Shown here one piece after another: positions 42,757 through 44,040 of a stretch of DNA of 64,000 bases. Each line of letters opens with the position of its first letter. Position 1 is the stretch's first letter. Origin of the DNA: Fluviicola sp. (GTDB lineage: Bacteria; Bacteroidota; Bacteroidia; Flavobacteriales_D; Crocinitomicaceae). The position numbers and the translations under genes were made by a program. The notes beneath the pieces were generated by a model, which saw nothing but the letters and a program-made list of their open reading frames with translations, had not been told where the DNA came from and made no database searches. Where the stretch lies: positions 89,060 through 153,059 of the forward strand of contig NVXV01000007.1 in the NCBI GenBank assembly GCA_002734085.1, given 5' to 3'.

Positions 42757-44040
42757 TTGAAAGACAATCCTTCGACAGTTGAAAAAGGCGATGATTTTGA
42801 GACAAGGGCACTTGGGATAATTTTACGATTAATTGAAAGCTCCCAAATAAGTCACCTTTCAGAACATATTAAAGTCTATACGAGGAAAGATAAAGGCTAT
42901 TATTCTAGTTTTAGAGATAGCAATATATACTTCGATATTACTCTTGAAGTGTGGCCACCAAATTCAACACGAAGTAGTTTTAATTATTTTATTGAATGTA
43001 AAAATTATGGAGGGCCTATACCTGTTGGACAGATTTCAAAATTTGTTGAAGACGTAAGGGAAGTTGGAGGTCTTAATTGTAAAGCAATTTTTATTTCTAA
43101 TACAAGACTACAGAAAGGAGGATATAATATCGCCAAGAATCTGGGGCTAATGTTAATTCAAGGTGAGTCAGCTGAAGATTTTAAAATTGTTTTAAATAAA
43201 TCATCACAACCTAATTTTAAGGATGAAATTCCAATACTTAAACCTACATTAGATACATCTGTAATTGATGATACAGTATCGCCGATTATAAAGTTGATCG
43301 ATGATGTAATTCGAAGTGCATTTAAAGAGTTAGAAGAAACTAGAAGCTCTAGTTACAATATTGATAAGCTAAGTAAAAAAGAGATTATTCTTAAAGCCGA
43401 AACAGAGTTAAAGAAATTTGATCCTGAAATGTTTACTTTAGGACGAGCAGTTAATATTAATAGTCTAAAAGAGTATCTCAAGGATACATACGACATAGAT
43501 ATAAAACAATTCTCTTCACCAATTAATTTGCTTGGAAACTGTGATTTTGATGCAAATACAATTGGGTTAAATACGTCTATTGTTGATACAAAAAGGGAAT
43601 TGTTCGTTCTATGTCACGAATTAGGTCATTTCTTGTTACATTCTAGTCTTAGAATTGGTCAAGTTACTTATCAAGGATTTGAAGATTCTAAGAAGAACTT
43701 TAGAACTGGAAAAAGAGACCTAGAGAATCCTAAGAATTGGATTGAGTGGCAAGCTAACCAGTTTTCCTCTTCATTTATATTACCAAGGGCGGTTTTTTTA
43801 GCACGTTTATGGCTTTACCAAGATAGTTTAGGTTTAAGTAGAGGAAAAATTTACCTAGATGATCAACAAGATAACCAAAAGAGATTTTCGAACTTCGTTC
43901 ATCGTCTATCTCTATATTTTAATGTGACAAAAACTTCTGTTATATATAAACTCAACGATATGGATTTAATAAATGATAACTCTAGAATCAAATCAGTTGG
44001 TCAGATTCTAGATCAACACTCAGATGAATTTGGATTTTGA
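42757..44040 (+). CDS. PD-(D/E)XK nuclease fused to ImmA/IrrE-type metallopeptidase
   Basis: 427 residues, read from a TTG start because there is no ATG nearby. Residues 1-140 match a restriction-endonuclease-like (Mrr-type) fold: D60 in IYFDITLEV, E80 and K82 in FIECKNYGG, followed by GQISKFVEDV and the AIFISN strand. Residues about 210-390 match the ImmA/IrrE peptidase family, with LCHELGHFLLHSS near 286 as zinc site and FEDSKKNFRTGKRDLENPKNW and EWQANQFSSSFILP after it, the usual third-ligand region. IrrE-type peptidases cleave repressors after a stress signal; the nuclease cuts DNA. The two together in one chain suggest a self-contained damage or phage response unit. There is no HTH domain to bind DNA. 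Confidence 0.8.
   Translation: MKDNPSTVEKGDDFETRALGIILRLIESSQISHLSEHIKVYTRKDKGYYSSFRDSNIYFDITLEVWPPNSTRSSFNYFIECKNYGGPIPVGQISKFVEDVREVGGLNCKAIFISNTRLQKGGYNIAKNLGLMLIQGESAEDFKIVLNKSSQPNFKDEIPILKPTLDTSVIDDTVSPIIKLIDDVIRSAFKELEETRSSSYNIDKLSKKEIILKAETELKKFDPEMFTLGRAVNINSLKEYLKDTYDIDIKQFSSPINLLGNCDFDANTIGLNTSIVDTKRELFVLCHELGHFLLHSSLRIGQVTYQGFEDSKKNFRTGKRDLENPKNWIEWQANQFSSSFILPRAVFLARLWLYQDSLGLSRGKIYLDDQQDNQKRFSNFVHRLSLYFNVTKTSVIYKLNDMDLINDNSRIKSVGQILDQHSDEFGF

Follow-up and report, generated by a model that had tools for sequence, protein, structure and literature searches.

A PD-(D/E)XK nuclease domain joined to an ImmA/IrrE-type metallopeptidase: a sometimes mobile gene family with a possible role in immunity or stress response

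The fusion gene and its surroundings

The window analyzed here, a stretch of 64,000 nucleotides from Fluviicola sp. (GCA_002734085.1, contig NVXV01000007.1, positions 89,060 to 153,059), contains a gene whose product had been described in a first-pass annotation as a PD-(D/E)XK nuclease fused to an ImmA/IrrE-type metallopeptidase. This arrangement in one chain was borne out, as the ORF is intact and both folds are predicted (Table 1). The residues D60, E80, and K82 stand exactly at the positions named there for the nuclease core, and the HELGH motif, which had been placed near residue 286, occupies residues 287-291. The AlphaFold2 (AF2) model of the whole chain, predicted from an alignment of 52 rows, had a pLDDT of 83.1 and a pTM of 0.65, with dips in confidence at residues 148-154 and 194-198. 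When the whole chain was searched against the PDB with Foldseek, two matches were obtained at E<=0.001 (3dti and 1y88), and a PDB sequence search with the window protein alone gave no match. Among the models of PADLOC-DB 2.0.0 and NCBIfam, none spanned both halves, and only partial matches were found at E<=0.5. Pfam revealed no HTH family, no CARF domain, and no modified-base-binding domain in the window protein.

Table 1. Features of the fusion gene, with positions counted from the first letter of the window
Feature	Position	Strand	Basis
Fusion gene	42757-44040	+	Intact ORF, TTG start, 427 aa; M78 and Mrr_cat matches; full-length homologues
PD-(D/E)XK nuclease domain (predicted), residues 1-147	42757-43197	+	AF2 model of residues 4-147; fold matches
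Catalytic D60...E80-C81-K82 (predicted)	42934-43002	+	Conservation in 59 aligned rows
Interdomain linker, residues 148-204	43198-43368	+	pLDDT dips; dN; L053/L055 split near its 3' end
M78 (ImmA/IrrE-type) metallopeptidase domain, residues 205-425	43369-44031	+	Pfam; CapP and IrrE fold matches
HELGHFLLH, residues 287-295	43615-43641	+	H287, E288, H291, and H295, each in 59/59 rows
E330 of the ExQAN motif, likely third metal ligand	43744-43746	+	59/59 rows; part of the search pattern

The gene had also been placed at the start of an accessory region, and this agrees with a comparison of eight genomes of the same genus, in which none of the 31 predicted window ORFs between 41681 and 63992 had a counterpart within the 20 kb that follow typA (tblastn, E<=1e-8, at least half of the query covered). 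This part of the window, approximately 22 kb, consists mostly of small genes following typA, many of them of unknown or lipoprotein-like character by eye. The description of the two flanking genes as belonging to no assigned family stood up as well, since neither reached a Pfam cut-off, and no HTH family was detected in either of them by Pfam. As candidate partners they were rejected: none of the 919 neighbor ORFs at 60 homologous loci was similar to them at E<0.01, and they are probably not partners of the fusion.

A family spread over six phyla

Scanning contigs with a profile built from a five-sequence alignment found 82 relatives, of which 80 loci were kept. A fusion was called when one ORF matched the query from residue 80 or before to residue 345 or beyond, with frameshifted copies counted apart, and 51 of the 80 loci carried both halves in one frame (L014, L034, and L074 being short at the start and L051 at the end). 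The remaining loci comprised six frameshifted copies (L028, L029, L033, L035, L056, and L064), two divergent two-gene forms (L053 and L055), one copy truncated at the end of its contig (L067), and 20 loci matching in the M78 part only, including L077 and L078. Residue conservation was counted over 59 aligned rows. Two of them, L033 and L035, are identical copies from a single contig. L077/L078 were excluded, as were the window itself (L001), L002 (identical to L013), and L007 (the same as L006 in 427 of 430 residues).

The tree spans Bacteroidota, Pseudomonadota, Ignavibacteriota, Chlorobiota, Campylobacterota, and Planctomycetota; the placement of some of its long branches is uncertain. The window protein pairs with a Marivirga protein (L008; 51% identity, branch support 100/100), and its relative on a Fluviicola MAG contig of the same family (L013/G012; about 48% identity) is not its nearest neighbor, which suggests horizontal transfer. 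The distribution is patchy. In genomes of the same family, 4 of 240 were matched, three holding the fusion and the fourth (G008) the peptidase part only, and phylum-wide the fusion was present in 4 of 395 genomes. Among viruses, 11 related loci came from IMG/VR, and of these only L088 has both halves; virus scans with the nuclease domains of the window and of L053 confirmed no further fusion.

Several individual copies deserve comment. Algoriphagus resistens holds two divergent fusion copies in one genome (L012 and L015). The contig of L006 (CAKLQH020000007.1) is labelled as an Acinetobacter phage contig and looks chromosomal, with housekeeping genes around the match; that of L007 (NZ_CP104448.1) is labelled as a plasmid of 4.09 Mb and looks chromosomal by record size. 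The nuclease half is disrupted in L033/L035, L056, L064, and L028/L029, which may reflect either sequencing error or inactivation. In L051 the disruption is in the peptidase half, so the bias of breaks toward the nuclease half is weak. The Aquimarina longa pair L028/L029 was considered as a two-gene form, rejected, and treated as frameshifted copies.

The C-terminal half is an M78 zinc peptidase

The Pfam family Peptidase_M78 (PF06114) matched residues 255-399 above its cut-off (E=5e-11), and at E<=0.01 the same profile matched all 52 family members, the window included. The residues H287, E288, H291, H295, and E330 were each present in every one of the 59 rows. Structural comparison with VIA-align gave CapP (7t5t) as a match to residues 205-424 (Z 13.3, rmsd 5.1, 170 aligned), IrrE (3dti) to residues 202-424 (Z 12.8, rmsd 5.5, 174 aligned), and single-stranded DNA (ssDNA)-bound PprI (8sln) to the peptidase part (Z 12.8, rmsd 5.2, 171 aligned). 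CapP was also the top PDB profile match of this half (E=1.9e-10). In PADLOC, the capP model came first, followed by models of RmrA, the antitoxin of RosmerTA (RmrTA); the best of these (E=3.8e-7) covered residues 277-352 only. The NCBIfam match was to a repressor/antitoxin family of the spr1629 type, far under its cut-off, and HTH_22 was found by Pfam in one of 52 family members. With the HExxH motif, the downstream Glu, the profile, and the fold all in place, the C-terminal half is an ImmA/IrrE-type (M78) zinc peptidase.

Two further residues bear on DNA sensing. In PprI, R85 belongs to patch 1 and F88 is a stacking residue; by an inferred numbering offset, their apparent counterparts in the window protein are R280 and F283. 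Arginine is found at position 280 in 46 of 59 rows, and phenylalanine at position 283 in all 59. These residues may be general features of M78 proteins and are only suggestive of ssDNA sensing.

The N-terminal half is a predicted Mrr-like nuclease domain

The Mrr_cat family of Pfam matched window residues 75-137 with E=0.009 and 16.5 bits, under its cut-off of 21. At E<=0.01, the same family was matched by 48 of the 52 members (window included; best 1.1e-9), so the low score obtained with the window copy reflects divergence and not loss of the domain. E80 and K82 were present in all 59 aligned rows, and D60 and E64 in all 56 rows with a residue at those positions, the three gaps being ORFs that start after a frameshift. 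The search patterns contained D60, E64, and E330, and E80/K82 and HExxH lay outside them, so the conservation of the latter is no artefact of the search.

The nuclease domain alone (residues 4-147) was modelled by AF2 with a pLDDT of 94.7 and a pTM of 0.88. VIA-align placed it closest to AF1548 (Z 12.4, rmsd 2.5, 110 aligned), followed by 2vld (Z 10.8, rmsd 3.3, 108 aligned), EndoMS (Z 10.1, rmsd 4.0, 113 aligned), VC1899 (Z 9.9, rmsd 3.5, 126 aligned), Cdn1 (Z 9.9, rmsd 3.4, 125 aligned), Can2 (8bao; Z 9.6, rmsd 3.5, 121 aligned), MspJI (Z 8.2, rmsd 4.0, 119 aligned), and AspBHI (Z 7.8, rmsd 4.3, 116 aligned); rows below Z 8 also contain non-nucleases (an RNA polymerase subunit and SfsA). Card1 aligned over 120 residues with an rmsd of 3.2 and a Z within the range of 8.9-9.9 found for Can2, Card1, and Cdn1. 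We take AF1548 and VC1899 to be PD-(D/E)XK folds. In the whole-chain model, the N-terminal part gave Z 11.0 with AF1548 (rmsd 3.1, 117 aligned) and Z 10.1 with Can2 (7bdv; rmsd 3.0, 130 aligned). Foldseek was less sharp than VIA-align and returned one match for the domain at E<=0.001 (1y88), and a PDB sequence search with the nuclease profile matched only the Can2-type 8bao, weakly (E=0.03). Thus a nuclease fold in residues 1-140, on which the earlier reading depended, is supported by both the model confidence and the AF1548 match. The N-terminal half is, as modelled, a PD-(D/E)XK, Mrr-like nuclease domain, and it is predicted to cleave DNA.

The window copy carries D99 and E102, at which relatives have K in 50 of 59 rows and Q in 50 of 59 rows, respectively. 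Both residues sit on the helix after the catalytic strand, and since they are unlike those of most relatives, the activity of the window copy may differ.

Coupling of the two halves

In a scan of 395 genomes of the phylum with a nuclease-only profile, in which at most 10 candidates per genome were scored, matches were found in 11 genomes. In the four genomes with E<1e-20, the matched ORF always also encodes HExxH; the other seven matches were weaker and are Mrr-like proteins that lack it. Substitution rates were estimated by the Nei-Gojobori method for eight homologue pairs, which are not all independent, L046 entering two of them. The dN/dS of the nuclease half was 0.02-0.20 in seven pairs, the eighth being saturated, and that of the peptidase half was 0.06-0.19 in all eight. 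For the linker, it was 0-0.57 in seven of the eight pairs, and the linker had the highest dN of the three segments in six of eight. Purifying selection maintains both halves and mostly constrains the linker less. A conserved cleavage site was not obvious in the linker.

At the Bacteroidota loci L053 and L055, the halves are divergent neighboring genes whose start regions adjoin. The first M78 helix follows directly after the break, and a linker-like tail remains on the split nuclease. The two loci form the sister group of the main Bacteroidota clade in the tree, and under a midpoint root, fission of a fused ancestor would be the simplest reading. No further split pairs were found in the 395 genomes.

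The Bacteroidaceae loci L077 and L078 join an M78 peptidase to a degenerate domain that hhalign matches to the nuclease of the family (probability 94.5, E=7.8e-8) and that has lost the Asp and Lys, with the peptidase ligands kept. Nuclease activity is thus not retained in every branch, and the conservation of Lys, Glu, and Asp expected by the annotation holds across the 59 aligned rows but not in these two proteins. The ORFs (L077, 6600-8534, 645 aa; L078, 6705-8390, 562 aa) have an extra N-terminal region. The same 395 genomes contained no more such forms at E<=1e-12; the sole match in that scan was rejected as an ordinary fusion matched via its M78 part.

Two Acinetobacter copies (L046, 7992-9287; L047, 7971-9290) differ unevenly along the gene. 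The dS is 0.75 over the first ~450 bp, which is the nuclease half, and only 0.11-0.12 over the linker and peptidase half, as if the nuclease half had been swapped through recombination.

Genomic context and mobility

No recurrent partner gene was found among the 919 neighbor ORFs at 60 loci, and no repressor-type or toxin gene family recurred beside the fusion in this set. The largest neighbor clusters, present at nine and six loci, consisted of generic signalling and transporter genes by eye. Several homologues sit among housekeeping-type genes, and the Acinetobacter copies L006, L046, and L047 share their position.

The clearest evidence for mobility came from a pair of loci. The gene of Photobacterium aquimaris (L062) is 93.5% identical to that on an IMG/VR contig (L088), and the identity runs from 20 bp before the start codon through the stop codon, with no similarity of the flanks even in a sensitive search. 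Two defence genes lie upstream of the fusion at L062: one for a HamB-like helicase (E=2.5e-34) at a distance of 0.3 kb, and a PtuB-like gene (1.9e-66) roughly 7 kb away. Neither HamA nor PtuA was identified at this locus. At L088, the fusion is part of a prophage, where it has an integrase gene on one side and CI/Cox/CII-like genes on the other; the gene of an origin-nicking protein comes next, and we read this order as P2-like. Hence the gene can move alone into defence-type and prophage cargo positions, which suggests a self-contained, mobile, probably anti-phage unit.

Known defence genes also lie near some other copies, here given as selected cases. KwaA, KwaB, and GajA are located downstream of L012, and AbiEi and AbiEii upstream of L037. 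On a Spirosoma plasmid (L005), the distance to AbiEi/AbiEii is about 9 kb, and a recombinase gene is close by. A strong match to a DpdF/PsyrT-type helicase is near L043, and neighbors of L027 and L042 match candidate systems. In a matched comparison, 143 neighbor proteins from 20 loci were set against 123 proteins from 20 control stretches of the same contigs. At E<=1e-10, the neighbors matched 127 PADLOC models and the controls 60, many of the models overlapping. Cas1/Cas4, DpdE, and ZorD, with strong PADLOC scores, were among the control matches listed. Single proteins were resolved for 29 of the 143 neighbors, chosen by hand, and for the first member of each tally, and on the control side for the first member only, which gave no match. 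Given that the controls also match PADLOC and that few proteins were resolved, we claim no enrichment of defence genes. The suggestion of a compact defence unit made in the annotation gains from the single-gene move and from the defence genes at some loci, and the comparison with control regions speaks neither for nor against it.

Genes that are CoiA-like by eye were seen directly downstream of the fusion at L023 (9345-10940) and L031 (1763-3430), separated from it by 16 and 7 bp, respectively; the two are related to each other (25% identity, E=1e-23). A CoiA-annotated gene at L005 (15877-17514), ~2.6 kb from the fusion, shows no similarity to that of L031.

Discussion

The presence of both domains and their active sites, the purifying selection on each, one lone move of the gene, and the coupling of the halves as a fusion or a divergent pair are the computed results to be explained. 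For a gene without partners, the most economical reading is that the nuclease is switched on by the M78 domain of its chain once the latter senses DNA. We therefore tentatively favor, at somewhat less than an even chance, a single-gene switch in immunity or stress in which an M78 sensor and trigger controls the nuclease on its own chain. By analogy with PprI and CapP, the zinc peptidase would be activated by single-stranded or damaged DNA, which could arise during phage replication. CapP is activated by ssDNA (PMC13373217), as is PprI (PMC10904395). The activated peptidase would then control the PD-(D/E)XK nuclease, most likely by cutting the linker in its own or a neighboring copy, or alternatively through a rearrangement of the linker. 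Cleavage would release or unmask the nuclease, and the freed enzyme may cut phage DNA, or phage and host DNA together. The DNA trigger, the activation step, the cleavage target, and the anti-phage outcome are all proposed here from the domains and their relatives. A bolder version, which we consider doubtful, is that the protein would be a complete immune pathway: a DNA-sensing metalloprotease that activates its own pro-nuclease, can be split into a divergent pair, and forms a single-chain bacterial counterpart of caspase-activated DNase.

The order of events may also be reversed, with the nuclease-fold domain serving mainly as a DNA-binding sensor and the peptidase as the output that cuts a repressor or a host or phage protein. 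The peptidase ligands are intact in all 59 rows, and PprI and CapP are described as repressor-cleaving proteases (PMC10904395). L077/L078, which keep these ligands beside a degenerate nuclease domain, give the best evidence for this reading, in which the nuclease fold can have a binding role. However, the invariance of E80/K82 in the 59 rows and the strong purifying selection seemingly go beyond the needs of DNA binding, and no repressor-type family recurs near the fusion at the 60 loci. We consider this order unlikely.

A toxin-antitoxin-like protein, in which the M78 domain restrains a toxic nuclease that is freed by degradation or cleavage, seems improbable. The RmrA models that follow capP in PADLOC and the NCBIfam repressor/antitoxin match far below its cut-off would fit it, but the best RmrA match covers only a short part of the peptidase domain. 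The divergent two-gene forms and the copies broken in the nuclease half would fit as well; the break of L051 in the peptidase half weakens that bias, and the strictly conserved metal ligands imply catalysis in addition to binding. Next in rank, and quite improbable in our judgment, is a chromosomal DNA-repair or stress factor that combines an IrrE-like regulator with a NucS-like repair nuclease and has no defence role. The fold likeness to EndoMS and IrrE agrees with it, as do the many loci among housekeeping-type genes and the shared Acinetobacter position. Against it stand the patchy spread (3 of 240 family genomes and 4 of 395 phylum genomes) and the copies in a prophage (L088), on a plasmid (L005), and beside defence genes. 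The least probable reading, a modification-dependent (type IV-like) restriction enzyme with the peptidase as a structural or targeting domain only, draws on the likeness to MspJI and AspBHI, the Mrr_cat profile, and single-gene mobility, but conflicts with the invariant peptidase ligands and with the Pfam result for modified-base-binding domains.

The two modules are known, and their combination as a widespread single-gene family is apparently undescribed within the literature searched, which lay mostly outside subscription journals and contained no description of a nuclease-M78 fusion; the available parts of PMC3506569 and PMC12255303 hold nothing bearing on it. As a compact single-gene family in six phyla, with a natural prophage copy and two-gene forms, it lends itself to tests of mechanism.

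Comparison with known systems

CapP is the best profile and fold match of the peptidase half. It is, however, a protein of its own, with the HTH repressor CapH as its cleavage target, whereas the fusion has a nuclease on the same chain and neither an HTH domain nor a recurrent repressor gene. The pairing with a fused or adjacent HTH repressor that marks CapP/CapH, ImmA/ImmR, and IrrE/DdrO was found neither by Pfam in the window protein and its two direct neighbors nor as a recurrent gene family at the 60 loci. Deinococcus IrrE/PprI shares the M78 fold, HExxH, and seemingly the counterparts of R85/F88, but PprI has a GAF domain where the fusion has the nuclease domain (PMC10904395), and no DdrO-like partner recurs near the fusion at the 60 loci.

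Models of RmrA and of the spr1629 repressor/antitoxins match the M78-type peptidase domain of the fusion. PD-lambda-2B is presented in PMC9519451 as a phage-defence toxin-antitoxin system in which an Xre-HTH domain is joined to a peptidase. The fusion differs from these systems in having a nuclease as the joined domain and in lacking a recurrent toxin gene nearby. The nuclease half resembles Can2, Card1, and Cdn1 in fold, with a weak sequence match to 8bao, and the CARF_PDDEXK models of PADLOC match this part of the fusion only. In contrast to those proteins, the fusion has no CARF domain, and its M78 peptidase sits C-terminal to the nuclease.

A parallel in logic is the action of protease-activated pro-nucleases in Hachiman, AVAST, and Canu immunity, as reported in PMC12799240 (2025). 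A protease and a nuclease are likewise coupled in HamMAB, AVAST, and Canu, where immunity was demonstrated, whereas for the fusion we infer it. In those systems, an MBL-fold nuclease is served by a trypsin-like or caspase protease from another gene, according to the same paper; the fusion lies outside them, as it pairs a PD-(D/E)XK nuclease with a zinc peptidase, mostly in one chain. Relatives of its protease are activated directly by ssDNA. If our preferred reading is true, the logic of protease-activated nucleases would extend to another type of nuclease and of protease, united in a single polypeptide.
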